The notes under the pieces: model-generated
What the model was told of the DNA's origin: nothing
Seen by the model: the letters and a program-made list of their open reading frames with translations, nothing else
Databases searched by the model: none
IMG/VR virus record: IMGVR_UViG_3300000116_000143
Location: 1 to 28,521 of that record
Reading direction: 5' to 3' (one strand)
Origin: a virus
DNA length: 28,521 nt
In this document: positions 552-28,431 of the stretch, piece by piece
Layout of the letters: every line of letters begins with the position of its first letter
How positions within the stretch are numbered: position 1 is the first letter of the stretch
Translations under genes and position numbers: made by a program

Positions 552-561
552 GGAGATAGGG

Positions 562-7409: not shown

Positions 7410-7416
7410 TTTAACC

Positions 7417-8742: not shown

Positions 8743-8744
8743 TA

Positions 8745-11452: not shown

Positions 11453-11460
11453 ACTTACTC

Positions 11461-12108: not shown

Positions 12109-13133
12109 ATCAAATCCTTAAACAAACTATTAGTTAAAAACCCTCTTAACATTTTAACGTAGTCTACGCTTTGTTGCTTTTCAATAGGGTCTTTTGCTTG
12201 AAAAGGAGTGTACTCAAAACTGCTGTTTACGGTTCCGGGGCCAGAAGCACCAAAATTACTACCGGGGCCAAAAGAAGTTGAAGAAGTTGAAGAAGTTGTT
12301 GGTACACTTTGCATACAAGAAATATGATTACGGTTAATGTTAGAATACATTTTACCGCCTACTCTATAGTAAACATGCAAGTCATTGCCTTGACATTCTT
12401 CAGCAATTGTCCCATCGTTAGTGTTATTAGGTGTTGCACCGTTAGTAGACCCTGTTAATGACGTGTCTGGTGTGTTTGATACTCCCTCACAATTAACATT
12501 ATTTTCTAATTTTTCTATTGTTCCGTCGCTCCAGTACACATTTAGAGTAGTATCAGCGCAAAAAGTTTTAAGAACTTTGGGTGGGACAAAATCAGGATCA
12601 GAGCCGTCTTTAGCCCCTTCGTCTACAGTAAAAACATTACCACTTAATCCAGTTTCAGTAGGTTGACTATCTGCCATTGGCACTAACATTGATTGCGCTG
12701 GTGCCTCTGTTTCTAACATTGATTGCGCTGGTGCTGGTGGTGGTGGGCCTATTGGATTAACAGTTCCAACTTGGTTAGGGTTAAGATCAGGGAAATTAGT
12801 TTCTGATAGGTATGATGCAGTGTCTTGAGCATCAGGAAACTGATCCATAAGAGAATCTACATCAACTTCTGGAATATATGGATTGTTGTTTTGAGAATCA
12901 GCAACCTGTTGACCGCTTCCAAACATACTGCCGCCCAAAGAACTATTAAGCCATGTATTATATTCAGTACCAGATGTGTAATGTGCCATTGGCCCTGTGT
13001 AAGTATAACCGAAACCGGGATAGTACGTATACTCATCTGGATGCGTTTCTGGACTAGTACTTGCTATGTAAGCATCAGCCGCTAAAGCCTGTTGACTAGG
13101 AACATAGGCAGGATCTCTATTGTCATACGCCAT
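12105..13133 (-). CDS. Putative virion protein with a duplicated Cys-bounded motif
   Basis: This is a 342-aa protein of no family I recognise. It is rich in Asn, Ser, Thr and Pro (GPPPPAPAQSM, TTSSTSSTSFGPGSN), suggesting extended or surface-exposed regions. Two short units, at about residues 191-214 and 246-272, look homologous: both begin with Cys, have L.VY(W/Y), then Gly, then Asn residues, and end with Cys. A 10-residue direct repeat containing PAQSML is encoded by two near-identical 22-base blocks starting at 12683 and 12713. It lies between the large Cys-rich protein and the tail adaptor and overlaps both starts, so it is co-translated with tail genes. A tail or accessory receptor-contact role is possible. 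AAGGA lies ahead of the start. Confidence 0.7.
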   Translation of the reverse strand: MAYDNRDPAYVPSQQALAADAYIASTSPETHPDEYTYYPGFGYTYTGPMAHYTSGTEYNTWLNSSLGGSMFGSGQQVADSQNNNPYIPEVDVDSLMDQFPDAQDTASYLSETNFPDLNPNQVGTVNPIGPPPPAPAQSMLETEAPAQSMLVPMADSQPTETGLSGNVFTVDEGAKDGSDPDFVPPKVLKTFCADTTLNVYWSDGTIEKLENNVNCEGVSNTPDTSLTGSTNGATPNNTNDGTIAEECQGNDLHVYYRVGGKMYSNINRNHISCMQSVPTTSSTSSTSFGPGSNFGASGPGTVNSSFEYTPFQAKDPIEKQQSVDYVKMLRGFLTNSLFKDLI

Positions 13134-15643: not shown

Positions 15644-16020
15644 TATTTCTTACCTTTTAACGCAAGCAACTTGTCAGCGCCACGTATACCAAAGGAGGCA
15701 GATACTGCCATGAATAACAAATACTGATACCAATCAGGAAGTCTGTTAAGCTCCTCAAAGGCAAGACCAATGCGATCTAGTATATCTACATCATTCATTC
15801 CAATACCCCATACAACGGCAACCACAGGCGCTGAGAGCAACAATGTAAACCACTCGTCCTTCCAAGAGGTAGCACTGGCAGTTGCCATGAGTTGTTCCCA
15901 AGACGCTGTGTTCTGGATAACTTCCATCTTTGCTTTGTGTATTGCTGACTTTTCTTCAGACCTGTTCTTTAGAACCTGACCCAGCAAAGTAACAATAGGA
16001 GATATGAGTGTTTGCCACAT
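15643..16020 (-). CDS. Putative holin (GTA holin-like, 2-3 membrane segments)
   Basis: This 125-aa protein resembles the 3TM holin family described from gene transfer agents. Two clear membrane helices are visible at about residues 58-75 (FTLLLSAPVVAVVWGIGM) and 99-112 (QYLLFMAVSASFGI). There is also a hydrophobic, possibly amphipathic N-terminal helix (LISPIVTLLGQVL). Family-like features are the W.D.W before the first helix, the LNRLPDWYQ turn between helices, and a basic C-terminus after GIRGADK. Holins form lesions in the inner membrane that release the endolysin. The endolysin candidate lies 11 kb upstream on the same strand, so the lysis genes are split. GAGG lies 7 bases upstream of ATG 16020. 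Confidence 0.75.
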   Translation of the reverse strand: MWQTLISPIVTLLGQVLKNRSEEKSAIHKAKMEVIQNTASWEQLMATASATSWKDEWFTLLLSAPVVAVVWGIGMNDVDILDRIGLAFEELNRLPDWYQYLLFMAVSASFGIRGADKLLALKGKK

Positions 16021-16023
16021 AGA

Positions 16024-16290
16024 CTACCTCATCATATAAACAGCAAGAGATATACACGCACTAACAATAATCCAGAAGAATCTTTCTGAGTTTTTGACAG
16101 AGCTAGTGTTTACCATGACTACATTTTCTAAATCACGTAGGTCATCTTCTTGGTCATCTAATCTTTTTTCATGTCGATCCATGCGTTTAAAAGCAGATAG
16201 TAACTGCTCTTCCACACGTGCAATCTGAGATACCGCTTCAGTTAGCTTATCCAGCTTCTGCTCAATGCGGTCAAACCTGTTATCCATCAT
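16024..16290 (-). CDS. Coiled-coil protein with C-terminal membrane anchor (lysis-associated?)
   Basis: This is an 88-aa protein. The start at 16290 is chosen because AGGA lies 9 bases upstream; the open frame extends to a TTG at 16329 that lacks a good ribosome site. Residues about 5-60 form a heptad-rich coiled coil (FDRIEQKLDKLTEAVSQI), and the last 18 form one membrane helix (FFWIIVSACISLAVYMM). The arrangement resembles XhlA-type hemolysin/holin partners and some spanin-like proteins. Adjacent to the holin candidate, with 3 bases between them, it probably belongs to the lysis function as a holin partner. It could instead be a membrane-anchored tail or exclusion protein. Confidence 0.7.
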   Translation of the reverse strand: MMDNRFDRIEQKLDKLTEAVSQIARVEEQLLSAFKRMDRHEKRLDDQEDDLRDLENVVMVNTSSVKNSERFFWIIVSACISLAVYMMR

Positions 16291-16361
16291 AGATGCGCTT
16301 CCTGAGACGTTCATTTTACAAGGCAGCAACTAACAAAAATAAATTATTCATTCCAAGTTCC

Positions 16362-16724
16362 TTAAATAATTACATGTTCCCAGCTAATTGTATTTTCATC
16401 CCACCTATACATAGCACCGTCCGCAGGCATGGGTACAGGAGGTTCCCACTGGCAGGTTGAGTTAACTAAAGCCCAGCTTGGATATGGTTGTGGTGGTATA
16501 AAAGCATCAAGTTCTGTATCGTATGTATAGCCAACACCTGCAAAATTCTTACGTATATTTCCGTTATAACTAGTCTGCTTCCATGTACCGCCCAACAACT
16601 CACTACAAAACGATAAACCTAATGATTCTTGTTCTTCTTGGTTGTCATCAATAATTTCAGAGTTAGCTACAACAATAACTTGTAGAACTACATTGTTTTC
16701 ATCTAACTGTGCAAAGTGAGCCAT
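16362..16724 (-). CDS. Fibre-associated conserved phage protein
   Basis: This 120-aa protein is of a kind frequent in cyanophages and other marine phages. Characteristic phrases are MAHFAQLDENNVVLQVIVV at the N-terminus, GGTWKQTSYNGNIRKNFAG in the middle, and a Trp/Pro-rich end (PYPSWALVNSTCQWEPPVP and MYRWDE). Its function is unknown; it is usually found beside tail fibre or adhesin genes, as here, and is taken to be a structural or fibre-associated protein. The start overlaps the stop of the Gly-rich adhesin gene (TAATG). The 71 bases between its stop and the next start hold no gene. Confidence 0.82.
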   Translation of the reverse strand: MAHFAQLDENNVVLQVIVVANSEIIDDNQEEQESLGLSFCSELLGGTWKQTSYNGNIRKNFAGVGYTYDTELDAFIPPQPYPSWALVNSTCQWEPPVPMPADGAMYRWDENTISWEHVII

Positions 16725-17611
16725 TAGAACGTAATACTCCCTGATCCAGTAAAGGTATAAATATTATAAGAACCACTTGTAGTTTCAGTAGGGGAACCTG
16801 ACGTTGCTGAAGCAGTTGCAAGGGTTTTAATAATTACAACTCCTGATCCTCCTGCACCACCTGAAGATCCACCATGAGAGCCTGCTGCTCCACCTCCTCC
16901 TCCAGTGTTTACTGAACCTGTACCACCAGCACCTGCACCGCTGTTACCACCGCCTCCTGCTCCACCTGAAGCTCCAGAATTAGGATAACTACTACCACCG
17001 CCACCGCCTGCACGAGTAACAGCACTTCCTGTTATTGAGCTTGAAGAGCCTGCTCCACCAACACCGGCTGATGATGCGTCACCAAGACCACCTACAGCAC
17101 CTGCACCTCCTCCACCGCCACATCCGTATACACCAACAGCACCACTACTATTTCCACCGGCGCTTCCTTGGCCTAAAGTGCCAGCACCTCCAGTGTAACT
17201 TCCGTAAACTCCGCTACTAGCAACAGAGGCACCACCACCTGACCCGCCTGCATTACCATTACCTGAAGATCCGTAGTGAGCGCCACCACCTCCACCAGTA
17301 CTAGAAACTGTAGTAATACCAGTACCTGCTAAACTAGAAATATTACCGTCAGTTCCTCTAGAAAGATGATTAGCCGCTGTTGCGCCTGCACCCACAGTAA
17401 CAGTATATGTAACGCCTGCTGTTAAACTTAAGGAAGAGCCAGTAAGGTATCCACCAGCACCACCACCGGCACCGTGATAGGAACCTCCTCCTCCTCCACC
17501 GCCTCCAGCAATAACTAAATAATCAATATCAGGAACAGGATCGCCAGCCTCAAGGTGACTAAATCCAAAACCTTGTGCAGAAGCGCCACCAATTGTAGAT
17601 AAGATAGGCAT
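16724..17611 (-). CDS. Glycine-rich tail adhesin
   Basis: This 295-aa protein probably forms a receptor-binding tip. After a short head (ILSTIGGASAQGFGF) comes a DYLVIAGGGGGGG strand and then about 200 residues dominated by Gly, Ala and Ser in runs such as GGGGGAHYGSSGNG and GGAGGGGNSGAGAGG. The protein closes with GSGVVIIKT and YTFTGSGSITF, the usual end of phage Gly-rich domain proteins. Such Gly-rich regions can pack as polyglycine-II helices, as in the gp38 adhesin of phage S16, where loops between glycine runs set host specificity; applying that here is inference. It lies directly after the tail fibre gene and overlaps it by one base (TAATG). Confidence 0.85.
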   Translation of the reverse strand: MPILSTIGGASAQGFGFSHLEAGDPVPDIDYLVIAGGGGGGGGSYHGAGGGAGGYLTGSSLSLTAGVTYTVTVGAGATAANHLSRGTDGNISSLAGTGITTVSSTGGGGGAHYGSSGNGNAGGSGGGASVASSGVYGSYTGGAGTLGQGSAGGNSSGAVGVYGCGGGGGAGAVGGLGDASSAGVGGAGSSSSITGSAVTRAGGGGGSSYPNSGASGGAGGGGNSGAGAGGTGSVNTGGGGGAAGSHGGSSGGAGGSGVVIIKTLATASATSGSPTETTSGSYNIYTFTGSGSITF

Positions 17612-19185
17612 TATGCAAACTGCGTCTGAGCAGCTAAAACAGTAAACGTAGCATCTGCTGTTTTAATAATTGTAAATGAGTAAGTGTCAATACTATTCGT
17701 ATTACCAGCAGAAGGTGCAGCGCCTCCCTGCCACTCAGGTGTTACTGAAGAACCGTCTATTTGAAAAGTATTTAAGTAGTAAGCTGTTCCTGCCTGCTTC
17801 ATAAGAACAGCAGTAGTTATACTTTCTCCAGCAGCCATTGTACTGTTTAAAGTAGTACTGCCATCCCCTCTAAAATTAATTGTTCTGTTTGCTGTTTGAT
17901 TTACGTTGTAAAAATGAACGGCTTGGCTTAAAAAGTCAAAGTTGATAGTCCCTGATGTAGAGCTATCTACGTTAACTTTTTCTATAATTTCTGCAAGAGA
18001 AGTCGTGCCTACTAAAGTAACCTTGGATGTTGCACTAGCTGTAACTAAAGTAGAAGCCCCACTAGTGCCTAATACATTTGGTAAATCAACAGTGTAAGTA
18101 GCTGCTGCGCTATGCGCTGGGCCTCTTACTGTTACGCCGTGAGAGTTCGACTCACAGTTAAATCTAATAGTTCCGGGGTTAGTATTACCATATAGTTCAG
18201 TAAATCCAGTACCGTTAGGGAATAACTGTATGTTGCCGTTTGTATCAGTTGACTTTACTGCATTAGCATCTATCTGAATATTGTCTACGTTTAAAACACT
18301 AAGTGTAGCTAAAGATGCTACTCCTGTATCAGCAATAGTTATGTCCCCTGATACTACATTATCAATCCATTTTGAAGTTGCTGTGTCATAAAATAACAAA
18401 CCACCGTCAGCAGGAGAAGTAATGTTTACATCAGTTAACCCAGCAAGAGTAGCACCGCCTCCTCCCGTCTGTGCATCTACGTATGCTTTAATAGATTGTT
18501 GACTAGCAATACCTGTAGCTGAGTTACTAGCCATATTGTCTTCGTCTAAAAAAGCTTTACCAGTTAAAATGTTTAACTCAGCAGTTGAAGATGTTATTCC
18601 ATCAAGTGTGTTAAGCTCAGAAGCTGTAGAAGTTACTCCATCAAGTATATTTAATTCTGCTGTTGTAGAAGTAACGCCATCTAATATGTTTAGCTCTGCT
18701 GTTGTAGAGGTTACACCATCTAATATGTTTAGCTCAGAAGCAGTAGAAGTAACCCCATCTAAAATATTTAACTCAGCGGTTGTAGAGGTAACTCCGTCTA
18801 ATATGTTTAATTCAGCAGTAGTAGAGGTTACACCGTCTAAAATATTTAGCTCTGCTGTTGTAGAAGTTACACCATCAAGTATATTTAATTCAACCGCCGT
18901 TGAAGTAATTGCTGTGCCGTTAATAGATAAAGTAGTAAAGTTGCCTGTAGCTGCTGTACTGCTTCCAACAGTAGTGCCATCTATAGCACCACCATTAATA
19001 TCTACTGTAGGAATAACAACAGTACCAGTAAAAGTGGGGCCATCTGTGTTTGATTTAGTAGCAATAGCTACTGCAATAGCATTAAACTCTGTATCAAACT
19101 CTGAGCCACGGACAACCTTATTGGCATCACCCGTAGGTAAAGAATCTTTAGCAGTAAAATTTGTGGATTTTACATAGTTAGACAT
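17611..19185 (-). CDS. Tail fibre protein with nine 13-residue repeats
   Basis: This is a 524-aa fibre or fibre-base protein. The N-terminus (MSNYVKSTNFTAKDSLPTG) followed by VVRGSEFDTEFNAIA is a common virion-attachment start in marine phage fibres. Residues about 95-211 are nine tandem 13-mers of the form S(T/A)(A/S)ELNILDGVT, a repeat commonly seen in aquatic phage fibres and probably building a rod. The C-terminal half is beta-rich and ends with phrases (AYYLNTFQIDGSSVTPEWQGG) widespread in cyanophage fibre proteins. It is the first gene after the capsid terminator; I see only a weak promoter-like sequence in the 55 bases before it, so read-through is the likely source of its transcript. 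AGGAAAACC lies ahead of the ATG. Confidence 0.87.
   Translation of the reverse strand: MSNYVKSTNFTAKDSLPTGDANKVVRGSEFDTEFNAIAVAIATKSNTDGPTFTGTVVIPTVDINGGAIDGTTVGSSTAATGNFTTLSINGTAITSTAVELNILDGVTSTTAELNILDGVTSTTAELNILDGVTSTTAELNILDGVTSTASELNILDGVTSTTAELNILDGVTSTTAELNILDGVTSTASELNTLDGITSSTAELNILTGKAFLDEDNMASNSATGIASQQSIKAYVDAQTGGGGATLAGLTDVNITSPADGGLLFYDTATSKWIDNVVSGDITIADTGVASLATLSVLNVDNIQIDANAVKSTDTNGNIQLFPNGTGFTELYGNTNPGTIRFNCESNSHGVTVRGPAHSAAATYTVDLPNVLGTSGASTLVTASATSKVTLVGTTSLAEIIEKVNVDSSTSGTINFDFLSQAVHFYNVNQTANRTINFRGDGSTTLNSTMAAGESITTAVLMKQAGTAYYLNTFQIDGSSVTPEWQGGAAPSAGNTNSIDTYSFTIIKTADATFTVLAAQTQFA
18553..18903 (-). repeat. Nine 39-bp tandem coding repeats in tail fibre
   Basis: Nine in-frame units of 39 bases encode the ELNILDGVT repeat of the tail fibre. 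Protein units are almost identical, while the codons differ from unit to unit (for example AAT or AAC for Asn, and GCT, GCA, GCG or GCC for Ala). The outermost units are the most diverged (VELN at one end, TGKA at the other). Confidence 0.92.
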
Positions 19186-19240
19186 AAGGTTTTCCTATCC
19201 GTTGTGTCTTTTAGTTAAACACCCTAATTTAAGATGCTTA

Positions 19241-19266
19241 AATAAAAGGGGGCCATTGCGACCCCC
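19241..19266 (-). terminator. Intrinsic terminator after the capsid gene
   Basis: Read on the - strand: GGGGG (19266-19262), a 9-base loop, CCCCC (19252-19248), then TTTTATT. A U.G pair can extend the stem to six. It lies 8 bases after the capsid stop and before the tail fibre gene, and would limit transcription past the abundant capsid message. Confidence 0.85.
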
Positions 19267-19273
19267 GTAGGAC

Positions 19274-20266
19274 TTAAGCGTCAGCGAGTGACAGGATAAA
19301 TCCTGCTTCAGGACGATAGGTTTGGATGCCGTACAAAGTGTCAGCAGTGTACAGAGTAGACAAGTACTCTTGCTTGTACTGAGTCTGCGAACGTACAGCC
19401 ATTTGCTCTGCAAGAACAAGAGCGTCCTTGTGGAAGAACAAACAACCGCGAGTGTCAAGAGTTGAGGCGCTGTTTTGAGCAGCTACTTCAATAACAGGAC
19501 AGTTAGCAGAAACGTAAACGTCTACACCGTAGAGGTTACCAATCAAACCAGTTTCCACACCACGGCCACCAACAAAGTCAGAGGACACGTATCGCTCAAT
19601 ACCCATGATAGACTTACGTGCAGCAGGTGGAATCACCAAGCAACGATTGTCCATAGGTACGTTAGCATCATCCATCTTCTTGATAGCTTCGCGGAAACCA
19701 AGATCAGTAAAGTTATCACCAGAAGTTACTGTGTCAGTTGCGTAAGCAGCAAGACCAGCAGCAGCATTAAAGTAATAACTGTTAGTGTTAACCCAGTTTG
19801 CACCAGTGTTAGCAGGAGTAGTAGTACGAGTACCATCACCAAAGCCAGTAGCTGCATTCATCAGGTCAGTGTCAACCGTCACAGCCAATTGATAACCAGC
19901 ATCTTCAGTGTAGAACTGACGCAGAGAGGACAGAGCCTGTACTTCTACGATATCTTCGATGAAACGTGAGTACTCAAAGTGTCGATCAATAGTGATCTGC
20001 AACTCAGTCTCAGTGTTTGCTTGGATAGTGACAGCAGTGTCAGCTACCTTAGCATTTGCTTCACCACGAATGGGCTTAGGTACGTGAATCAAGTCACCTT
20101 TCTTTCCTGTCATAGATAAACGCTTGACAAGAGGTGCCATCTTCAAGTTCTTTTGGAAAGCAGCAATAATCTCGTCACTCCAAATTTCTGGAATGAACTT
20201 GTCTGCCGCTGTTTTGTTGACGATTGACCCGCCGCCAACTGTACCGGGATACGCTTGTTCAGCCAT
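19274..20266 (-). CDS. Major capsid protein
   Basis: This 330-aa protein is the main shell subunit, presumably with the HK97 fold. The sequence fits small podovirus coat proteins (T7 gp10A is 345 aa): an N-terminal arm (MAEQAYPGTVGGG), the segment IPEIWSDEIIAAFQKNLKMAPLVKR, a helical EDIVEVQALSSLRQFYTEDAG spine region, the A-domain phrase RCLVIPPAARKSI, and an end with TLYGIQTYRPEAGFIL. It lies directly after the scaffold gene, with a strong AAAGGAG 7 bases before ATG, and a terminator follows. Its base composition looks more GC-balanced than the ejection genes, in line with high expression. The group has its own promoter copy at 21647-21675. Confidence 0.93.
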   Translation of the reverse strand: MAEQAYPGTVGGGSIVNKTAADKFIPEIWSDEIIAAFQKNLKMAPLVKRLSMTGKKGDLIHVPKPIRGEANAKVADTAVTIQANTETELQITIDRHFEYSRFIEDIVEVQALSSLRQFYTEDAGYQLAVTVDTDLMNAATGFGDGTRTTTPANTGANWVNTNSYYFNAAAGLAAYATDTVTSGDNFTDLGFREAIKKMDDANVPMDNRCLVIPPAARKSIMGIERYVSSDFVGGRGVETGLIGNLYGVDVYVSANCPVIEVAAQNSASTLDTRGCLFFHKDALVLAEQMAVRSQTQYKQEYLSTLYTADTLYGIQTYRPEAGFILSLADA

Positions 20267-20283
20267 TGTATTTCTCCTTTAGG

Positions 20284-21075
20284 CTACTTGACCCTCCTTT
20301 CCGCATAAGCTGCCATTATTTCAGGCTGTAGTGCCATGTAGCGGTCAGGGTCTTCTTTCATAAGTTTAATTAAGTCAGCACGACGATAAACTTTCTTACG
20401 AGATCCTTCTGATGTTCCACGAGCGTTGCCTGTGTTAGCAGACTGTACCGCACTCTTACGAGCTACCTTTTCAGCTTGCGCTGTCTGTTGGACTACTTGG
20501 TTACGTTCTTTCCAGTTACTAAATAGTTCATCAGCGGCATCGTAATCGTACTTTTGGTCAGCATGTACAAACAAATTTGTTCGGACTTTAGACCCCTTGA
20601 TCCACTCAGCAAACTTAGGGTCTTGCAAAATACGTTCCATTTCTGGATGCTTAGATTTAAGCTGTGCAAGAGTAGCCTGTTGTTTGTATTGTTGTGTATA
20701 AGCTTGTGCTTCTTTTATCTTAGGGTGGTTGTCTATAGCTCTGTTTACAGCAGTTGTAGGATCAATAAAGAAATCTGTATCATCTTCTTGTTGCTGTTGT
20801 TGAGGTGCTGGTTGGTTAATAAGTTGTGTCTGAATATGGTTATCAACAACTTTTCGTAACTCTCCAACTTCCGTACTCTGCTTTCCAGTAAATCTTTCAA
20901 GCTCTTGGTGCATCTGCACTAGATCCTCTACTGATTTACCTTGGTACTTTTCTGGAAGTTCAGACGCTGCTTGAGGTTGCTCCTCTGGAGTCTCTACAGT
21001 ATTTTCTGTGTCGAGTTGATCTGTTGCTTCTAACTCTTCTTCTGGACGCTCATCAATTAGTGTTGCTCTTGACAT
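20284..21075 (-). CDS. Capsid scaffolding protein
   Basis: This 263-aa protein lies between portal-side small genes and the capsid gene, the normal site of the scaffold. Composition fits: an acidic, disordered N-terminus rich in Glu, Thr, Asp and Pro (about 1-45), a conserved-looking LPEKYQGKSVEDLVQMHQEL segment (about 40-59) common in podovirus scaffolds, a Gln-rich linker (PAPQQQQQEDD), helices through the middle, and a basic C-terminal end (about 215-263) suited to bind the coat protein. It should direct procapsid assembly and leave before or during packaging. The 57 bases between it and the upstream gene hold no other gene. The ribosome site is weak (GGGG about 13 bases upstream of ATG). 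Confidence 0.87.
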   Translation of the reverse strand: MSRATLIDERPEEELEATDQLDTENTVETPEEQPQAASELPEKYQGKSVEDLVQMHQELERFTGKQSTEVGELRKVVDNHIQTQLINQPAPQQQQQEDDTDFFIDPTTAVNRAIDNHPKIKEAQAYTQQYKQQATLAQLKSKHPEMERILQDPKFAEWIKGSKVRTNLFVHADQKYDYDAADELFSNWKERNQVVQQTAQAEKVARKSAVQSANTGNARGTSEGSRKKVYRRADLIKLMKEDPDRYMALQPEIMAAYAERRVK

Positions 21076-21132
21076 AATATAAACTTACCCCGCCTTATTA
21101 GGTTATGGAGAAATAAAATAGGAGTTGCCCGG

Positions 21133-21354
21133 CTAGGATTCCTTACTTGTCTGTCCTGCGTTTTCGTGTTCACGTACCCACTTCATGTGTCTACCGGGAA
21201 AGTCCCCAGAGGCACCGTCAAGTATGTGACGAGTAGCAGAAACAATCTTTGTAGCATTAGCACCACAATCGCACCTACTGATTGCCGTGTCTTGTTCTAC
21301 AAATTCTTCAAAAATATGCCCATTAGTACAACGAAACTCAAATACTTTAATCAT
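21133..21354 (-). CDS. Small zinc-ribbon protein (FmdB-like)
   Basis: This is a 73-aa protein; ATG 21354 is chosen over an upstream TTG-type extension because the protein begins naturally with IKVFEFRC and overlaps the end of the upstream gene. A single zinc ribbon is likely: Cys9 with His13 and a CDCG knuckle (Cys28, Cys30), a degenerate version of the FmdB-type C..C / C..CG pattern. The following SATRHILDGASGDFPGRHMKW is a usual continuation in phage copies. Its function is unknown; these proteins commonly sit just before scaffold and capsid genes in marine podoviruses, and an assembly or regulatory role is only a guess. Confidence 0.78.
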   Translation of the reverse strand: MIKVFEFRCTNGHIFEEFVEQDTAISRCDCGANATKIVSATRHILDGASGDFPGRHMKWVREHENAGQTSKES

Positions 21355-21592
21355 CGTCTTCAGTCTTATTAGCTTCTTCGTAGTTAGTAGTAACAATAGT
21401 TTCCATGTTGATTAAGTGGGCTAATACGTTTAGTTGTCCCTTACGGAAGTACATATCGTTAGCATCTTTAGTTGCTTCTATACTGTTAATGTTGTTAGCG
21501 TTGTTAGTAAATTCACTCGTAAGTTGCTTCCAACCGTCTGTTATAAAAAGACTAAAGTAATTGTCGTAGTACGTTTGTGTTTCTTGATCCAC
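21347..21592 (-). CDS. Conserved-type small phage protein, unknown function (GTG start)
   Basis: This 81-aa acidic protein starts with GTG at 21592, with AAGGGG 6 bases upstream supporting the choice. It is the first gene after the internal late promoter. The N-terminus (MDQETQTYYDNYFSLFITDGW) and a middle IEATKDANDMYFRKGQLNVL segment look like a short helical protein that recurs next to scaffold genes in T7-like marine phages; no function is known to me. No Cys, no membrane segment. Its stop lies inside the zinc-ribbon gene (8-base overlap), so the two are translationally linked. A role in head assembly is suggested by position only. Confidence 0.76.
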   Translation of the reverse strand: MDQETQTYYDNYFSLFITDGWKQLTSEFTNNANNINSIEATKDANDMYFRKGQLNVLAHLINMETIVTTNYEEANKTEDDD

Positions 21593-21642: not shown

Positions 21643-21678
21643 TTATATTATACCATACTTTTACTCAAAAGTCAAGCT
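21643..21678 (-). repeat. 36-bp promoter repeat, copy 1
   Basis: Identical over 36 bases to 28316-28351 and in the same orientation; flanks differ at once on both sides. It holds the whole promoter at 21647-21675. Confidence 0.95.
21647..21675 (-). promoter_or_regulatory. Late promoter copy 1 (sigma-70 type), scaffold/capsid group
   Basis: On the - strand: -35 TTGACT (21675-21670), 17-base spacer, extended TG at the usual place, -10 TATAAT (21652-21647). Transcription would start near 21640 and read the GTG-start gene, zinc ribbon, scaffold and capsid, ending at the terminator at 19241-19266. It lies in a 102-base gene gap, AT-rich, with no other gene seen. Confidence 0.85.
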
Positions 21679-21694
21679 ATTTTTAATGTTATTT

Positions 21695-21844
21695 TTACCG
21701 TTTCTTAGCTGTCTTAGCTGCTTTTTTGAAGGCAGAAGCCTTAGGCGCACCTTTAGACCCCGGTTTACGCATGGTTTCTCCTGAGCCAGCGGCAATACGT
21801 TTACGTTTAGCATTAATGTTGCTGTACAAACCGCGTTTAGCCAT
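21695..21844 (-). CDS. Small basic conserved-type phage protein
   Basis: This 49-aa, very basic protein is rich in Lys, Arg, Ala and Gly (AKRGLYSNINAKRKRIAAG, then MRKPGSKGAPKASAFKKAA). ATG 21844 is chosen because AAGGAAAA lies 5-8 bases upstream; the frame also opens 17 codons further up but that part covers another small reading frame. Near-identical short proteins with the same AKRKRI and KPGSKGAP phrases occur in many aquatic phages; function is unknown. The charge suggests nucleic acid or capsid-interior binding. It is the last gene before the internal late promoter. Confidence 0.8.
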   Translation of the reverse strand: MAKRGLYSNINAKRKRIAAGSGETMRKPGSKGAPKASAFKKAAKTAKKR

Positions 21845-21845
21845 C

Positions 21846-21905
21846 TTATTTTCCTTTTGGCTTAGACTTTGGCTTTTTCTTCTTACCTTTTCCATAACTA
21901 TACAT
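21846..21905 (-). CDS. Micro-gene, 19 aa, Lys-rich (candidate)
   Basis: A 19-residue basic peptide, MYSYGKGKKKKPKSKPKGK. It is supported by AAGGAG 7 bases before its ATG, by overlap of that ATG with the stop of the upstream 56-aa gene (8 bases), and by the next gene starting one base after its stop. Lys-rich YGKGKKKK-type sequences recur in short phage genes. It could also be only a leader that couples translation to the 49-aa gene. Confidence 0.5.
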   Translation of the reverse strand: MYSYGKGKKKKPKSKPKGK

Positions 21906-22068
21906 TAGCTTTCTCCTTTGCTTTTTTAGACAAGTCTTTGTAGTGGTACAGTTTTACAGAAGTCTTGCCGTGGGTTTTACCAGAGTGTAAAGAACCATCT
22001 GGCATTTTGTGAGTTCCTCCTGTGTGTAAGGTTCCGTCACGTTTGTAGTGCTTCATGTTTTTAGCCAT
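21898..22068 (-). CDS. Small His/Lys-rich conserved-type phage protein
   Basis: This 56-aa protein has a clear internal duplication: YKRDGTLHTGGTHK and MPDGSLHSGKTHGK share the pattern DG(T/S)LH.G.TH.K. The His and Gly spacing could bind metal, but this is not known. The end is basic and helical (DLSKKAKEKA). Similar peptides appear beside portal genes in marine phages. Its ATG follows the upstream stop by one base, with only a weak ribosome site, so coupled translation is likely. Function unknown. Confidence 0.8.
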   Translation of the reverse strand: MAKNMKHYKRDGTLHTGGTHKMPDGSLHSGKTHGKTSVKLYHYKDLSKKAKEKANV

Positions 22069-22069
22069 A

Positions 22070-22327
22070 TTAATCTACCGTATGCACCTTAGTTATTGAG
22101 ATTACCCACTGTTGCGGGATTACTAACTCTGCATCACCCTCTATAATTTTATTATCTTCAATCAACAAGTGAGGACAAATTATTAACTTCTCTTCGTCGT
22201 TTAGTAAAATAGAACCACAAGAAATAGCAGTGGCTACTTTAATTTTAGTTAGCTCTTCTACTTCTCGCCAACCCGCGTTAGAACCGCCTTGGGCATCTTT
22301 CCAGACTACACAGTATAAATCTACCAT
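22070..22327 (-). CDS. Hypothetical phage protein, beta-rich
   Basis: This 85-aa protein alternates short beta-like strands (VDLYCVVWKDA, VATAISCGSILLN, KLIICPHLLIED, AELVIPQQWVISITKV), which suggests a small beta barrel or sandwich of the SH3 or gatekeeper kind. I do not recognise the family. Three Cys are present without a paired metal motif. It overlaps the upstream gene's stop by 7 bases and ends one base before the next start. Located among small genes between portal and scaffold, it may be a head-assembly accessory. Confidence 0.72.
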   Translation of the reverse strand: MVDLYCVVWKDAQGGSNAGWREVEELTKIKVATAISCGSILLNDEEKLIICPHLLIEDNKIIEGDAELVIPQQWVISITKVHTVD

Positions 22328-22605
22328 TTAACTTTATCCGACCAGTAAGCAGCAGAACATTTTCCTTTGGCTATGTTTTTAGCGTGTCTAGCTTTAAAGG
22401 ACTTACGTCTAGCTTTATCTTTAGCACTGCTAGGGTTTTTACCTGCGCCACTCACTCCTTGTTGTCCAAATCTAATTGTTTTAACTGAACCATCATCACA
22501 CTTAGCTACAACTACATGAGACTTCTTAGGATGATTAGGAGTCCTCTTTGGTTTGTTGAACCCGCTTACTCCTGCTCGCGCTAGCCTTGGATCCTTTTTG
22601 CTCAT
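22321..22605 (-). CDS. Small basic conserved-type phage protein
   Basis: This 94-aa, strongly basic protein begins MSKKDPRLARAGVSGFNKPK and ends with RRKSFKARHAKNIAKGKCSA and a Trp-Lys-Trp type tail, phrases that recur in proteins of many aquatic phages and some large viruses. The middle has a KTIRFGQQGVSGAGK strand-loop. Function is unknown; charge and the RRKSFKARH block suggest nucleic acid contact. GAGGG lies 8 bases upstream, and the ATG overlaps the portal stop (ATGA, 22602-22605), so it is made with the portal protein. Confidence 0.83.
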   Translation of the reverse strand: MSKKDPRLARAGVSGFNKPKRTPNHPKKSHVVVAKCDDGSVKTIRFGQQGVSGAGKNPSSAKDKARRKSFKARHAKNIAKGKCSAAYWSDKVKW

Positions 22606-22726
22606 TGAGTTGGCCCTCTAGCTCCTTGACCCGGCTCTCCAGTAAGTCCAATCTGTCTAGGTGGTCGCTGAACGCTTTGTTGATCTGGTCTAGGAACTTG
22701 TTGGTTTCTGTTTGTGTCATTAGCAT
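22535..22726 (-). CDS. Candidate nested gene over the portal 3' end (coiled coil)
   Basis: This 63-aa reading frame lies over the last 125 bases of the portal gene in another frame and runs 71 bases into the following gene. It is considered real because the product is protein-like: a clean heptad coiled coil (FLDQINKAFSDHLDRLDLLE, then RVKELEGQL) with a basic-polar tail, and because AGGA lies 10 bases before its ATG (22726). An ATG two codons later (22720) is possible. In the same DNA the portal frame encodes only a low-complexity Asn/Gln/Pro-rich tail. Function unknown. It may alternatively be a chance open frame. Confidence 0.5.
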   Translation of the reverse strand: MLMTQTETNKFLDQINKAFSDHLDRLDLLESRVKELEGQLNEQKGSKASASRSKRVQQTKEDS

Positions 22727-24629
22727 TTTGACGTTTTCCTTCTATTTCAACTTCTTTTAGTAAAGAATCTGCAACTTTAAGTCTACGCTCAAATTCTTTG
22801 GCGTCGTTGTCTCCAACCTGTAAGTTTCTAGTCAGGGCGTTAATCTTATCAATTTGTAGCTCTTGTGGCGCTAGTTGTGTTTCTACAGAGAGCTTACCTG
22901 CTCTAGCTTCAGACTCAGCAGCCTGCGCGTTCAGAGCATTAGTTTGACTCTGCTGGAACTGCATCTGTGTCTGTTGAGCCATCATAGCCATCTGTTGTGC
23001 CTGTGGATCAGGCTGTCCAGCTTGTGATAGTGCTGCAATTAACTCTTCACGATTACTTAGGTTCATGTTGTCAATAATGCTTTGGATTAACACAGGGTAC
23101 AGAGGACTGTCTTGCTTCATTGTCTGCAAGAGTTGTACCAACTGTGTAACCTCGTACTCCCTAGCAATAATGCCTAGAGTAGACGTAGCAATAAACTTGT
23201 AGTCAGACACTGGGTAATTCTCAGGATCAAACTGCATGTACCTGTGAGCAGCCTTAGTAACAAAAGGCATAAGGAAAGATTGTTGGAAGTTTATAAGAGT
23301 GCGCTTATGACGCTTGATAATAGCACCAAGAGACATACTGATCCCAGCAGCAGTAGCCTCGCCGTTAACCTGTCCCGCGATACCTGCTGAGTCAACGGCC
23401 CCAGTAGCTTGCTGTACCATGCCTTGGAGGGCTTGAGCCTGTGCAAACGTAATTTGTCCGACTTGACCAAAGTTAAACGGTTGTAGTACTTCACGCGGAT
23501 CTCCGTTAGTTAGAATCATCTTACCGGGACGGACTTCTGGTTTAGCCCCTCTAGGAAGCCGTGTAGCGTCGATAGCGAGCATTGGGTGGATAGTGAGAGC
23601 TAGTGCGTCAATACGAGCGCGTAGCTCTGTATCAAGCGCCTTCTGGCTGTTATAGCCTTTCTCACAAACACCACGACCCCAGAATCTTGATGGTACTACA
23701 TCCCAAGGGAAAGCAACTACAGGACGATCCTGCATCATGTACGGATTAGCTTCAGCTTTGAGCAGCGTACCACCGTTAGCAATAACCACGACAGCCTCGA
23801 CGTACTTACTGTCTTCTTCTACGTCTACTTCTTCTGCTTCTAGGAGTTCTCGTGGTACAAGCCCGTAGTACTTAGTTAGCCTAACTTTGTCATCGTGGTA
23901 CACGGATAAGTCTTGATCTGGCTCTAGTTCTGAATCAGGAGCCGCTGACTCAAGGTACGCCTCTTTGTACACTCCCTGTTCTTGTAGAAGCTCTACAGAG
24001 TGCATAGACACAAACTCATCAATAGCAACACCCATAGCGTCTTCAATAGACGTAGCTACAGGGTCAATAAGAAAGTTCTGAGGCATTACAGGCTTTAACT
24101 TAACAACTACTCTGTCAGTAATGCTTACACCTACAGCAGTAAGGTCACCACCCATGACAGGCTCAGTAGCCGGTGCCATCTCTTTGATCTCTTCTAGGAT
24201 AATTTCGCCAATGCCTGTACCAAAAACAGCAGAGTTAATTAAACACTCCGCAACAGCCTTACGTACTTTACAGGATTCAAAATCTTGTGATAGCTTGTTG
24301 CGTAGGTACATTACGTCCTGACGCTCTTGGTCGTTTACATCGTCTTCTATGTCAAACCACTTACCACGACCAAAGGTGGCTTCTTCTAGTTCTGCTACGT
24401 TAGACTCTACAGCCTGCTGTAACGCAGGAGAGATAATTCTAGAACGCTCTGACGCTCTTTCAGAGTCAGCAGGATCCCATTGACCTCTCCATAGCCTATA
24501 GTATTCCTCAAACTTTTGTTCGTAGTTTGACTCATAGTTGTCTCTCCAGTTATCACACTTTACCATTATCCACTGTTCTAGCGATTCTTCAATTAAAAGT
24601 GGATCAGGGCTGTAAAGTTCATCTGCCAT
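22602..24629 (-). CDS. Portal (head-tail connector) protein
   Basis: This 675-aa protein forms the dodecameric ring through which DNA is packaged and leaves. The call rests on place (directly after large terminase, before scaffold and capsid) and on sequence of the podovirus portal type. It has a helical, Trp-rich start (WRDNYESNYEQKFEEYYRLW) and RSRIISPALQQAVESNVAEL at about 63-82. ECLINSAVFGTGIGEIILEE follows at about 127-146, then the VAFPWDVVPSRFWGRGVCEK crown/wing segment near 305. The C-terminal 120 residues are Gln-rich helices (about 540-600, PQAQQMAMMAQQTQMQFQ) and then a polar, disordered tail that overlaps another reading frame. AAGGAAAA lies 6-8 bases before ATG 24629. Confidence 0.9.
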   Translation of the reverse strand: MADELYSPDPLLIEESLEQWIMVKCDNWRDNYESNYEQKFEEYYRLWRGQWDPADSERASERSRIISPALQQAVESNVAELEEATFGRGKWFDIEDDVNDQERQDVMYLRNKLSQDFESCKVRKAVAECLINSAVFGTGIGEIILEEIKEMAPATEPVMGGDLTAVGVSITDRVVVKLKPVMPQNFLIDPVATSIEDAMGVAIDEFVSMHSVELLQEQGVYKEAYLESAAPDSELEPDQDLSVYHDDKVRLTKYYGLVPRELLEAEEVDVEEDSKYVEAVVVIANGGTLLKAEANPYMMQDRPVVAFPWDVVPSRFWGRGVCEKGYNSQKALDTELRARIDALALTIHPMLAIDATRLPRGAKPEVRPGKMILTNGDPREVLQPFNFGQVGQITFAQAQALQGMVQQATGAVDSAGIAGQVNGEATAAGISMSLGAIIKRHKRTLINFQQSFLMPFVTKAAHRYMQFDPENYPVSDYKFIATSTLGIIAREYEVTQLVQLLQTMKQDSPLYPVLIQSIIDNMNLSNREELIAALSQAGQPDPQAQQMAMMAQQTQMQFQQSQTNALNAQAAESEARAGKLSVETQLAPQELQIDKINALTRNLQVGDNDAKEFERRLKVADSLLKEVEIEGKRQNANDTNRNQQVPRPDQQSVQRPPRQIGLTGEPGQGARGPTQ

Positions 24630-24639
24630 AGTATTTTCC

Positions 24640-24777
24640 TTAGATTATTGCTACGCTGTAACCAAGTGTAAAAAACACCACAGCAGAAATTGCGTAGATT
24701 CCGTATGTATTAAAAGGACGCCAAACACGCTTGGTACTCATAGATTTTACTAGCTCATCTGGTAAAGGGTTTATCAT
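24640..24777 (-). CDS. 45-aa single-pass membrane peptide
   Basis: This short gene fills the gap between large terminase and portal. It encodes 45 residues: a polar, basic N-terminus (MINPLPDELVKSMSTKRVWR) and one membrane helix (YGIYAISAVVFFTLGYSVA). The positive charges before the helix predict N-in orientation. The ATG begins one base before the terminase stop codon is reached on this strand, so translation is probably coupled; the ribosome site is weak. Small membrane peptides at this site are known in related phages but without assigned function; lysis control or superinfection exclusion are guesses. Confidence 0.7.
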   Translation of the reverse strand: MINPLPDELVKSMSTKRVWRPFNTYGIYAISAVVFFTLGYSVAII

Positions 24778-24778
24778 T

Positions 24779-26029
24779 TTAGTAACCTGCTACTATATCT
24801 AATATTTCGTGATCGTCAATTTCAAAGTCGTAGTTGTAAGCTACCTTAGCTAATTGATCTACGTATGCTAGCGCATCAACCAAATCGTCGTGGGTCAGAG
24901 GATCAGGGAACTGAAACAGTTGATCCATGAATCTGTTGTTCCACTCTGCCTTCCTTAGTTCTATTTGGCCGTTCTCAAACCTTCCTTGCAAAGCCCACAT
25001 AACCCTGTCAGTCTTTTTCTTGTTACCGTGGGTTAGTTCTTCGACTCTAAAAAATCTCCCGTACTGTTTCATTAGATCTGTCAGGGGACTCATTACAGCC
25101 TGCTTTGCTATTCCTCTTTCAATACCAACACTAACGGGTTCGTAATCTCTAACGGCCTGAAATATCTTGGAGGCAGTCTCGTCAAGGCTCCACCGCCCAT
25201 GTATAATGTTATCAACGTACCAACCATCAGTACCAACTTTAACAACAGCGATTGCAGTCTCATCAAGTTTAGTGTTCTTGGTTCTCTTCTTGTTAACTTC
25301 TTCAAAGCCAGCTAAGTCAATAGCGATATAGTATTGGGCATCGTCTGGTTCTTCTCCAAAGTGTACCCAATCTTCTTTGAACATTTCTGAGCCTCTTGCT
25401 TCAAATGAGGCCATGAACTCTTGTCGGAAGGCGTAACTCGACATGGACTTCTTTGCTGTATCAATTTCGTCAGGGTCGAGGATTGGGTTGTCATAACTGG
25501 TAAAGTGCCACCCCTTGTAAGTTTCATCGTCACCTAGCTCCGCAAACTTATACAACTCGTAAAAGTGATTCCTGCCCATAGGCGTACCTATAAACATCGC
25601 TGAACCTTTTTGGTCAGCTAGTGCTGGACGGAGGATCTGCTCCCATACGTCAGGCTTCATGTCTGCGTACTCGTCCATTACAAGAAACTTCAAGGAAACA
25701 CCACGCATTGTCTCTGGCCTGTCGGCTCCTTTGAGACTAATCATGGCCCCGTTGACCAGCTTGATCTGTAGATTATTGATGTGGGCACCACTAATCACAG
25801 GGTTTCCTAGCTCCATCAGGGTCTGCCACATGATATCACGGGCTTGTCCCTGAGTGGGCGCAACGTAAAAAACTTGACCTTTGTCGGTCTGTAGAGCATT
25901 AATAATAAGCATCCATGCAGCGAGGCGTGACTTCCCTGTCCTCCGCCCTGCCGCTACTACCTTGAACCGTGTAGGATCAGAGTAGACTTCCTGCTGCCAC
26001 GGCAACAACTGAACATTCAAATCAGCCAA
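24779..26029 (-). CDS. Terminase large subunit (packaging ATPase and nuclease)
   Basis: This 416-aa motor cuts and pumps phage DNA into procapsids through the portal. Visible parts: an adenine-side motif LLPWQQEVY (8-16), Walker A AGRRTGKS (27-34), Walker B LKFLVMDE (113-120, Asp119 and Glu120), coupling motif MFIGTPMG (about 145-152), and the RNase H-like nuclease with IAIDLAG (first Asp near 234), VGIERG (Glu near 303) and HDDLVDALAYV near the end. It is on the short side for the family. The only possible start near the Walker region is TTG at 26029: its frame closes at a TAA just upstream, no ribosome site is seen, and the lipoprotein stop lies 2 bases before. Re-initiation after that stop is therefore likely. 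Confidence 0.95.
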   Translation of the reverse strand: MADLNVQLLPWQQEVYSDPTRFKVVAAGRRTGKSRLAAWMLIINALQTDKGQVFYVAPTQGQARDIMWQTLMELGNPVISGAHINNLQIKLVNGAMISLKGADRPETMRGVSLKFLVMDEYADMKPDVWEQILRPALADQKGSAMFIGTPMGRNHFYELYKFAELGDDETYKGWHFTSYDNPILDPDEIDTAKKSMSSYAFRQEFMASFEARGSEMFKEDWVHFGEEPDDAQYYIAIDLAGFEEVNKKRTKNTKLDETAIAVVKVGTDGWYVDNIIHGRWSLDETASKIFQAVRDYEPVSVGIERGIAKQAVMSPLTDLMKQYGRFFRVEELTHGNKKKTDRVMWALQGRFENGQIELRKAEWNNRFMDQLFQFPDPLTHDDLVDALAYVDQLAKVAYNYDFEIDDHEILDIVAGY

Positions 26030-26031
26030 GG

Positions 26032-26802
26032 TTAGTTACACGTTACTATGACTTGACCAGTTTCGTTAGTGGTGACAGTACAGCCGCTTTGCTCAGTAGC
26101 TAATATGTCTTTCCAAGTAGCGTCGCGTGCCTCAGAATAGTTGAGCCAGTTAAGGCTATTTGTGGAAATGTCGTTCATCCCTGTAATACCTACATTTTGC
26201 GTAGCAGTAATTCCAAGAGTGCCTAGTGTGACTGCCCCATTAACACCAATCGTAGCAATATTTGTATTAGCATTTAAACCTGAAGTTCCTAGATCAACAA
26301 GGTTATCCATGCCAGTAGTTCCAAGATTTACCATACCGTCAATAAAAGGGGTGTAATCTACGTTCCCTACAGCAGCAAGACCTGCGCTAGAAATATTAGT
26401 AAAACTTCCATAAAGCGCCTGTTGGGTTTGAGCATCTGCTGCTACAGACGCAAGATCTACCTGCGAGTTGTATCGAGCCATAGTCTTAGCTGAGTCTGCT
26501 TGCATCCACATCATGCCTAATGAAGTAACAGGAGAGGCCAAGATAGATGCCCATTGAATCGCCTCAGACTTTTGAGGAATGGGCTGAACATTAGCCGTTT
26601 GGGTTAGAGCTAGAGCCATTACAGCAGCACTAGCCGCTTGTCCATCGCCACTAGATGCAATCTGAGACAAAGCATCAAACTTAGCCTGTGCTGCTTTTGC
26701 GTTAGCTTCCGCAGTCTTTTGAACTGCCTCGTAATATAGTGAGTTGCTTGAAGCGCAACTCGTTAATACTAATACCGTTAGTGCTATCACAATGATTTTC
26801 AT
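26032..26802 (-). CDS. Phage-encoded lipoprotein
   Basis: This 256-aa protein has a lipoprotein signal: MKIIVIALTVLVLTSC, lipobox LTSC with the lipidated Cys at residue 16, followed by Ala-Ser (no Asp, which favours the outer membrane in Gram-negative hosts). ATG 26802 is chosen because GGAG lies 6 bases upstream. The mature part starts with an Ala/Lys/Gln helix (about 22-50), then Ala-rich segments, and about residues 150-215 contain short degenerate repeats of the type LGTTGMDNLVDLG, GLNANTNIATIG, GITATQNVGITG. I know no family. Sitting between endolysin and terminase, it could serve outer-membrane disruption at lysis, or block superinfection. It may carry its own promoter (26823-26851). 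Confidence 0.78.
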   Translation of the reverse strand: MKIIVIALTVLVLTSCASSNSLYYEAVQKTAEANAKAAQAKFDALSQIASSGDGQAASAAVMALALTQTANVQPIPQKSEAIQWASILASPVTSLGMMWMQADSAKTMARYNSQVDLASVAADAQTQQALYGSFTNISSAGLAAVGNVDYTPFIDGMVNLGTTGMDNLVDLGTSGLNANTNIATIGVNGAVTLGTLGITATQNVGITGMNDISTNSLNWLNYSEARDATWKDILATEQSGCTVTTNETGQVIVTCN

Positions 26803-26822
26803 AAAGTTCTCCAATAAGGGCT

Positions 26823-26851
26823 TTTATACAAAGTTAATTTTAGTAAGTCCA
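26823..26851 (-). promoter_or_regulatory. Weak promoter candidate before the lipoprotein gene
   Basis: On the - strand: TGGACT (26851-26846), 17-base spacer, TATAAA (26828-26823). The -35 matches 4 of 6 and the -10 5 of 6 positions of the sigma-70 consensus. It lies in the 37-base gap before the lipoprotein gene, the -35 overlapping the end of the M15 gene. Confidence 0.35.
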
Positions 26852-27181
26852 CATAACAGGCAATGAAGGCCGTATGTCTAGGTGAATAAAGTTACCAGCG
26901 ACCCCTATGCCAGTAAAACCGTGTTCTAAGGCAGCTTTTATTAACGAATACCGTTGAGCAGAGTTAGTTATCTTAATGTCTGCTGCTATGCCTTGCGCGT
27001 GAGTCCCCGGTATCTCTTTTATAGCCTCTAACGGGTGACTAGGGCTTCTGTAGCCGCTGGTAATAACAAATGGAAGACCACAATAGTGCCTGAGTGTGTC
27101 TAGTTTTTCTAGAAACTCAGGATTCATATTGTTTTCTCCTGTTTCTTTACAGTCAAACTCTGTAATAGAGAAGTACTTCAT
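26840..27181 (-). CDS. Peptidase M15 family protein, endolysin candidate
   Basis: This 113-aa zinc peptidase probably cuts peptide cross-links of the cell wall at lysis. Family marks: FVITSGYRSPSHP (38-50), THAQGIAADI with zinc ligands His61 and Asp68, and FIHLDIR with His100 and Asp102. There is no signal peptide, so it would need the holin for release. ATG 27181 gives the usual N-terminus (KYFSITEFDC) but has no visible ribosome site, while an internal ATG (27127, Met19) has AGGAG 8 bases upstream. Both forms might be made; the shorter one keeps all catalytic residues. It could alternatively be a virion-associated peptidase. Confidence 0.88.
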   Translation of the reverse strand: MKYFSITEFDCKETGENNMNPEFLEKLDTLRHYCGLPFVITSGYRSPSHPLEAIKEIPGTHAQGIAADIKITNSAQRYSLIKAALEHGFTGIGVAGNFIHLDIRPSLPVMWTY

Positions 27182-27189
27182 AGTCGCGT

Positions 27190-27501
27190 TTAGGGACGCT
27201 GCTTCTTAGCGGGTTTTTTCTTAGGCTTAGACTCACTTAGGGTCTTTGCTGCCCTAGCTACATCGTTGTTATAAGCACGTTCACAGTGATTAGAACCTAT
27301 AAACACAAAGTCAATTGCTGTATTAAGCACAGACCACCCTTTATACTTACTCTTTAACCTGTGGCTACGCCCTGATACAGACTCGTTAGCGTTGTCACCT
27401 AGTAGTATGGCTACGTTTACTAACTGACTAGTGGCGTCTCCTACTCTCACTACGTATCCTAGTACTTCGTCTAGTGCTTCTTCTGCTTTATTCTGTGGCA
27501 T
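27190..27501 (-). CDS. Conserved-type phage protein, unknown function
   Basis: This 103-aa protein is helical in its first half (KAEEALDEVLGYVVRVG, SQLVNVAILLG), then shows a NESVSGRSHRLKSKYKGWSV segment and HCERAYNNDVARAA before a Lys/Pro-rich tail (SKPKKKPAKKQRP). Proteins with the same SGRSHRL and N.DVARA phrases are frequent in marine podoviruses close to terminase and lysis genes, without known function. The GRSHR and basic tail could contact DNA. GGAG lies 9 bases before ATG, inside the glutaredoxin gene, which it overlaps by 14 bases. Confidence 0.75.
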   Translation of the reverse strand: MPQNKAEEALDEVLGYVVRVGDATSQLVNVAILLGDNANESVSGRSHRLKSKYKGWSVLNTAIDFVFIGSNHCERAYNNDVARAAKTLSESKPKKKPAKKQRP

Positions 27502-27730
27502 CTACTGTTTCTCCGGTAAAAGAGTTTAAAACTTCTGTTAAGTCTTTATGTCCACCTAAGTGGTAGAATATTTGAGGTATAGACCGTTTACCTGTTAGTG
27601 TTTCTACCATGTCCCACCCCGCTTGACCCGGAGGAATATGTATGTACTTGTATGGTAGTTCGTACTCTTTTACTTTTTTCTTTGCGTTTCTACAAGCAGG
27701 ACACCAATCAGCCCCTATAATAGTAATCAC
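27488..27730 (-). CDS. Glutaredoxin-like thiol protein (GTG start)
   Basis: This 80-aa protein has a thioredoxin fold signature: WCPAC (Cys10 and Cys13) after a first beta strand (ITIIGAD), then the cis-proline in SIPQIF (Pro52) and a GGHKDL turn typical of glutaredoxins. It probably donates electrons to disulfides; the class II RNR on the other arm, whose C-terminal cysteine pair needs reduction, is a plausible client, though RTPR usually uses thioredoxin. It lies in the late operon between small terminase and an unknown gene, an odd place for a nucleotide-metabolism gene. GTG 27730 is the start, with GAGGAA 8 bases upstream; it overlaps the previous stop as TAGTG. Confidence 0.87.
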   Translation of the reverse strand: MITIIGADWCPACRNAKKKVKEYELPYKYIHIPPGQAGWDMVETLTGKRSIPQIFYHLGGHKDLTEVLNSFTGETVDATE

Positions 27731-28212
27731 TAGACTTGTTCCTCGTAGTCACCATCAATAACTAGGTCTTCTTCTGGTTCTTTAGTATTTCCTAAGACCT
27801 CTGTAGCTCCAACTCCAGTAATGTTGATCTGTATTGCGTTCCTACCACCGTCCTTCATTACTTCCTTCTCAAATGCTCCCACAGGGAGTACTCTATCCAT
27901 TACTAACTTCCATGCAGCAGCTTGGTTCTTGTGTTCGTTGTCTAGAGCAGCATCAAAGATAGTCTCTAGTACCTTAACTGACTTAGGACTAGCTAGCATA
28001 CGAGCTTTGTACTCATTTATGATGCCAGCATCGCCCTTAGGCCTACCTACTTTACCTCTAGAACCTGTAGTCTTAGCCCTTACTTCAGACTTCTTAGGTC
28101 TGCCTCTACTTCTCTTCCGTAAGTTTACTTCCTTACGTTCTGCTAGTTGCTTAGTTAGGGTGTCATCTTCAGACATTCTCCTGTGTTCCTTATGTTTAAC
28201 ATGAGTTCGCAT
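27730..28212 (-). CDS. Terminase small subunit (probable)
   Basis: This 160-aa protein is first in the late operon and is called small terminase from position and layout. It has a basic N-terminal part with two AT-hook-like motifs (RSRGRPKK near 35-42 and KVGRPKG near 54-60), a helical core (EYKARMLASPKSVKVLETIF and NEHKNQAAAWKLVMDRVLP) of the kind seen in small terminases of marine podoviruses, and an acidic C-terminus (about 140-160), which may contact the large subunit. Such proteins recognise the packaging site. ATG 28212 has TAAGGG close by; an alternative ATG at 28176 has AAGGA 10 bases upstream. Transcribed from the promoter(s) at 28320-28460. Confidence 0.75.
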   Translation of the reverse strand: MRTHVKHKEHRRMSEDDTLTKQLAERKEVNLRKRSRGRPKKSEVRAKTTGSRGKVGRPKGDAGIINEYKARMLASPKSVKVLETIFDAALDNEHKNQAAAWKLVMDRVLPVGAFEKEVMKDGGRNAIQINITGVGATEVLGNTKEPEEDLVIDGDYEEQV

Positions 28213-28315
28213 GAGTCCCTTACCTAGGAGGCAACAGAAGAAGGGATCTATACGAACAGTTTAGTAGTCAACTAAGGCCCAACATCTGTCTTATTAATTC
28301 ATCCTAGTATCTGCC

Positions 28316-28351
28316 TTATATTATACCATACTTTTACTCAAAAGTCAAGCT
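28316..28351 (-). repeat. 36-bp promoter repeat, copy 2
   Basis: Identical over 36 bases to 21643-21678, same strand. The first differing bases lie immediately outside on both sides. Confidence 0.95.
28320..28348 (-). promoter_or_regulatory. Late promoter copy 2 (sigma-70 type), terminase operon
   Basis: On the - strand: -35 TTGACT (28348-28343), 17-base spacer, extended TG, -10 TATAAT (28325-28320). The start point would be near 28313, giving a leader of about 100 bases before small terminase. Identical to the copy before the scaffold/capsid group. Confidence 0.87.
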
Positions 28352-28431
28352 TTATTTAGTGTAAATATATAACAAATACTACTTAGGGCGTACAGATTTA
28401 TTACTTTAGTGCCGCCCGTGGGTAAACACAA

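Follow-up and report, generated by a model that had tools for sequence, protein, structure and literature searches.

Two identical sigma-70-type promoter blocks, probably read by host polymerase, ahead of two late gene units in an uncultured aquatic podovirus

What do two identical stretches of DNA do 6.7 kb apart in a phage genome, and what keeps them alike? The question is raised by a 28.5-kb virus record (the window, i.e. the whole stretch of DNA analysed here), a fragment from an uncultured aquatic phage. Direct comparison bears out the preliminary description in that positions 21643-21678 and 28316-28351 are identical over 36 bp, and that both carry TTGACT, a 17-bp spacer and TATAAT with an extended -10 on the coding strand of the late genes. 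The two blocks, subsequently named sites A and B, and their surroundings are as follows:

28316..28351, minus strand: site A, 36-bp promoter block; TTGACT (-35) 28343-28348, TG 28327-28328, TATAAT (-10) 28320-28325
28352..28359, minus strand: A-rich, UP-element-like stretch 5′ of site A, with A-rich positions conserved in relatives
21643..21678, minus strand: site B, 36-bp promoter block identical to site A; TTGACT (-35) 21670-21675, TG 21654-21655, TATAAT (-10) 21647-21652
21679..21686, minus strand: A-rich, UP-element-like stretch 5′ of site B, with A-rich positions conserved in relatives
22602..28212, minus strand: predicted late unit 1 behind site A; small-terminase-like ORF, glutaredoxin, M15 endolysin, large terminase, portal
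5091..21592, minus strand: predicted late unit 2 behind site B; small ORFs, zinc-ribbon ORF, scaffold, major capsid protein, tail and internal protein genes
3..4912, plus strand: opposite-strand arm; DNA polymerase end, endonucleases, class II ribonucleotide reductase (names via homologues in the relative G001)

Sequence and position of the two sites

Read on the minus strand, both sites have the form AGC-TTGACT-17 bp-TATAAT-ATAA with TGG before the -10, the TG lying one base before the hexamer. Near-consensus hexamers and a spacer of 17 bp (16-18 bp are required) give them the form of sigma-70-type promoters, and two optional traits are present as well: the extended -10 TG at both sites and conserved A-rich, UP-like positions upstream. 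The pattern TTGACW-N15-19-TATAAT has two matches in the window, namely sites A and B, while 100 dinucleotide shuffles of the window gave a mean of 0.06 and no shuffle with two. A consensus scan of the window likewise ranked both sites at the top (11/12 plus TG), the consensus being that of sigma-70, which may differ from that of the host. The blocks had been described as diverging at once outside the 36 bp; this is nearly right, except that upstream 8 of the next 11 bases still agree, so that the repeat extends imperfectly (94% over 47 nt).

The plus-strand arm converges on the minus-strand late genes. Site A precedes the start of the small-terminase-like ORF by ∼0.1 kb; this ORF was named by its position (it has no family hit), as was the scaffold gene. 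Site B, ∼6.7 kb from site A, directly follows the stop of a small ORF at 21695 and lies ahead of the scaffold-capsid-tail block. Gene order and strand suggest that each set of late genes forms one unit. Terminator-like sites showed no excess in the region 8600-28521 (13 found, 12.9 expected); a GC-rich hairpin with a T-rich tail, terminator-like in appearance, lies just after the capsid gene at 19248-19266.

A search for the exact 36-mer in relatives, which the preliminary description had proposed, found it in 15 further IMG/VR viral contigs, one of which (L003) contains both copies. Assembly programs may go wrong at short identical repeats, and the window record is incomplete; since the 36-mer recurs in these contigs, and both sites, together with their flanking genes, turn up in independent contigs, an assembly artefact or chimera can be dismissed, its probability being practically negligible. 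Copies before further gene groups would, according to that description, have lent support. None were found: relatives with the paired form have perfect matches at A and B only.

Conservation of the sites in related phages

Relatives were collected with the terminase, first as 80 loci at 84-99% identity and again as 80 partly overlapping loci with a more distant member as query. Occupancy was counted in loci found only via the terminase protein, after removal of duplicates and with a score of at least 13/14 as a match. A site of this form is present at A in 38 of 61 distinct relatives (mononucleotide shuffles: 0/610), if the search window reaches 200 bases further into the extrapolated start of the small-terminase ORF (15/61 otherwise), and at B in 50 of 64 (dinucleotide shuffles: 1/640); 23/61 had no match at A and 14/64 none at B. 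The interior of the portal gene, used as a control region, gave 0/101 matches. Both sites are present even in a distant member with 70% terminase identity (L305).

The terminase-derived loci yielded 23 distinct sequences for A and another 23 for B, which keep the 17-bp spacing, the TG and the -10; the selection itself had required that spacing together with a high hexamer score. Beyond the hexamers, this set conserves the C before TTGAC, the TG and A-rich positions at about -9 to -4 before the -35, and its spacers consist of a T-run and an A-run around a free centre. The A core agrees at 29/29 positions in L282, L339, L005, L014 and G003, with diverged flanks and TerL third codon positions 63-72% identical to those of the window. 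A second A form, ending in TATACT, marks another branch of relatives.

At site B, six loci (L252, L259, L260, L265, L269 and L248) have CTGAC for TTGAC and TACAAG, TAAAAG or TAAAAC instead of TATAAT, with T- and A-runs kept; most of them carry a GTGC-n6-GCAC inverted repeat over the -10. Judged by these hexamers, site B in the six loci is a poor sigma-70 site. No PF00940 match was found in their records.

Probable host-read late promoters

A further reading is that a T7-type phage RNA polymerase uses the blocks as its promoters, since they are nearly identical, precede late genes and occur alongside some T7-like replication genes. We regard this as very improbable: the sequence of both blocks is the sigma-70 consensus, and the single-subunit RNA polymerase family (PF00940) had matches in 0/12 and 0/14 relative records, many of these 26 records being fragments, with T7 as positive control matching at 1e-109; the scan covered relatives of the incomplete window. 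Three relatives look near-complete, because G002 is terminally redundant (an exact repeat) and the end words of G001 and G003 recur near their starts. Sigma70_r4 was not found in G001-G003 either, with positive controls.

We consider it probable that sites A and B are two strong sigma-70-type promoters that are read by host polymerase and drive two late units, their identity being due to selection together with occasional copying. From the sequence we infer that transcripts start at both sites. Site A would start the terminase-to-portal unit by means of the host's own RNA polymerase, and site B, ∼6.7 kb further on, would supply new transcripts of the scaffold, capsid and tail genes; the resulting boost in dosage would concern the proteins needed in most copies. 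Selection would hold both sites close to a common optimum, C-TTGACT-TTT-n4-AAAAGTATG-G-TATAAT, and from time to time conversion between short repeats would copy one site onto the other. The two-unit late regulon under host polymerase that had been suggested before thus gains support by inference, from a phage group without a detectable T7-type polymerase. Such an arrangement would show how transcription is organised in a large group of uncultured aquatic podoviruses that seemingly lack their own polymerase: two late units with two strong host-type promoters.

On the early strand, no site as good as A or B was found in the divergent region of G001-G003, and the analysis yielded nothing that accounts for a delay by which near-consensus promoters would act late. 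A terminase search of genome contigs for the host returned three metagenome-assembled contigs at 66-82% identity, labelled Sphingobacteriales, Verrucomicrobiales and Planctomycetaceae, and hence no consistent host.

Shared consensus and possible copying between the sites

The identity of A and B might reflect a shared consensus only, with both sites at the same optimum and copying absent. Part of the identity is indeed shared consensus, since the A form most often seen in the group is that of the window; furthermore, several relatives with ∼10% different terminase retain this form at 29/29 positions, and identical runs of at least 36 occur in 25 of 702 cross-genome A-B pairs. In most relatives, A and B are not identical within a genome: among the 27 A-B pairs listed, the longest identical run reaches at least 36 in three (G003, the window and L003, a near twin of the window), is 33 in one pair and 32 in another, and does not exceed 25 in the rest.

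A and B resemble each other more within than across genomes (similarity 0.541 versus 0.451, permutation p 5e-5; 15 genomes that differ by 5% or more in TerL, with no tree-based kinship in the test). The relative pools also drew loci with homologous late proteins from an 18-bp-spacer scan (120 loci, 17 with a homologous protein), which had no part in the motif evidence; L346, whose A is not promoter-like, and L003, both sites of which equal the window's, were left out of the similarity test. In the same 15 genomes the excess was found in the spacer (p 0.003), upstream (p 0.00095) and downstream (p 0.0003), in contrast to the far-upstream control (p 0.32). With near relatives as control the A-B excess was weaker and present in 16/22 genomes.

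That the within-genome excess extends to flanks beyond the core speaks against consensus alone, as do individual genomes: A and B of G003 share 50 identical bp, and L241 has an unusual spacer at both sites that is missing from the B sites of its relatives. In L305 the shared block runs downstream, and the B core of L014 differs from that of its near twin L013 solely by an A-type centre, GAGT instead of AGTC, which is what a single copying event would produce. Other genomes contain shared tracts of varying length, which point to occasional copying from site to site; the within-genome likeness of A and B fits this as well. We therefore hold consensus without copying to be possible, on the unlikely side. 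The recent copying put forward in the preliminary description finds support as a recurrent tendency, given the within-genome excess, with part of the identity belonging to shared consensus.

A bolder version is a self-correcting pair: repeated conversion inside each genome, driven by phage recombination, would keep A and B alike and the packaging and capsid units in fixed proportion, and the promoter type would change at both together, perhaps with a phage factor at the A/T tracts. We regard this as speculative and give it a small chance. If the pair does evolve in concert, it would be a simple natural case of distant promoters kept alike without a phage polymerase enforcing it, and the within-genome A-B test can be repeated in other phages. 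A limited literature search found no report of paired or concerted sigma-70 late promoters in phages.

A proposed factor reading the spacer

The identity includes the spacer, and the preliminary description offered an additional factor reading it. A phage- or host-encoded regulator that binds the spacer or the A/T tracts would make the two late units one timed regulon, with both sites fitting it. Conservation does reach the C before the -35, the T-run and the A-run; A and B co-vary within genomes; late use of strong promoters would seem to need a delay; and in six loci the hexamers changed with the tracts kept. One of ten early ORFs of G001 matches phrog_624 ('DNA binding protein') and is at most a candidate, whereas the other nine show no regulator-like family. 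Dyad symmetry kept by compensating changes, as in an operator, was not observed: the inverted repeat ACTTTT-n4-AAAAGT, with its AGTC and GAGT centres, lacks covariation (469 paired cells versus 476 in shuffles, 97 distinct cores), and we rejected the spacer palindrome as operator. The 97-core counts include loci found with a pattern that demanded the T-run and the A-run, so they overstate the conservation of these runs; the terminase-found sets are free of this.

The tracted motif is not specific to this group either: among the matches listed, 27 of 131 distinct sites with T-run/A-run spacers belong to loci that lack a homologous protein. Moreover, passages of a study on promoter spacers (PMC8695583) state that spacer composition alone changes sigma-70 promoter strength almost ten-fold and that 17 bp is best. 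With pairing at shuffle level, similar spacers in non-homologous loci and a reported effect of spacer composition on strength, the proposed factor is not supported, and we think a regulator of this kind improbable.

Comparison with known phages

Host-polymerase promoters of a podovirus are known from T7 (NC_001604), whose A1 has a -35 TTGACT after an A-rich stretch, as at sites A and B. T7 A2 and A3 share TTGACAACATGAAGTAA, an identity that covers the -35, reaches into the spacer and is comparable to that of A and B. T7 A1-A3 lie ∼0.12 kb apart at the genome start ahead of the phage polymerase gene; sites A and B, by contrast, are separated by 6.7 kb, each in front of a late unit, and a phage polymerase was not found. 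The genes had earlier been called T7-like; this applies to the replication genes, whereas capsid and portal are closer to cyanophages A-4L/CHP58 and HMO-2011-type phages.

Podoviruses of the T7 supergroup without RNA polymerase are known, and the genes of CHP58 are grouped by direction into two clusters, according to passages of a published account (PMC6129581). The Saffermanviridae (A-4L, Pf-WMP3, Pf-WMP4) and Mastigocladus phage CHP58 are such podoviruses; PF00940 was absent from these four, from HMO-2011 and from SIO1 in our scan. The window capsid shows 27-30% identity to the A-4L/CHP58 group. Features of the Saffermanviridae that recur in our phages are a homologous capsid, no detected RNA polymerase and two gene clusters; at a capsid identity of 30% or less, membership of that family is at most possible. 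Host promoters are annotated in Pf-WMP4, and the four records of A-4L, Pf-WMP3, Pf-WMP4 and CHP58 contain no pair of the A/B form at up to 2 mismatches. Their hosts are cyanobacterial.

Puniceispirillum phage HMO-2011, which has a portal related at about 25%, carries a late-gene intergenic site, TTGACAAAGCCACAAAAGTATGGTATAAT, that has AAAAGTATGGTATAAT exactly in common with sites A and B. Its genome is 55 kb, and the site lies between tail-fibre and structural-protein genes, rather than being one of a pair before terminase and scaffold. As AAAAGTATGGTATAAT occurs in this remote phage and similar spacers in non-homologous loci, the tracts seem to represent a promoter form that works well in general.

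Further observations

The small-terminase-like ORF (27730-28212, minus strand) contains RGRPKK and GRPKGD stretches, which we take to resemble AT-hooks. A tail-fibre-like gene at 18520-18948 contains 39-bp tandem repeats that encode repeated TAELNILDGVTS units. On the plus strand, GTGACA-17-TATACT with TG lies at 2180-2208 within the endonuclease I gene, where relatives have GTGACA...TATGGTATAAT; this is possibly an internal promoter upstream of the reductase gene.

In the early arm of G001 (L098:17088-19286), seven near-identical blocks of a 31-nt family stand around early gene starts, with AGGAGGCCTGAGGCCATG in gene direction; the block looks like a repeated ribosome-binding site. The divergent region of the same genome (L098:19653-19774, minus strand) contains three tandem copies of ATACTATGGTAGGACATT.GG with AAAATAAAGCT in early direction, and these echo the upstream part of site A.
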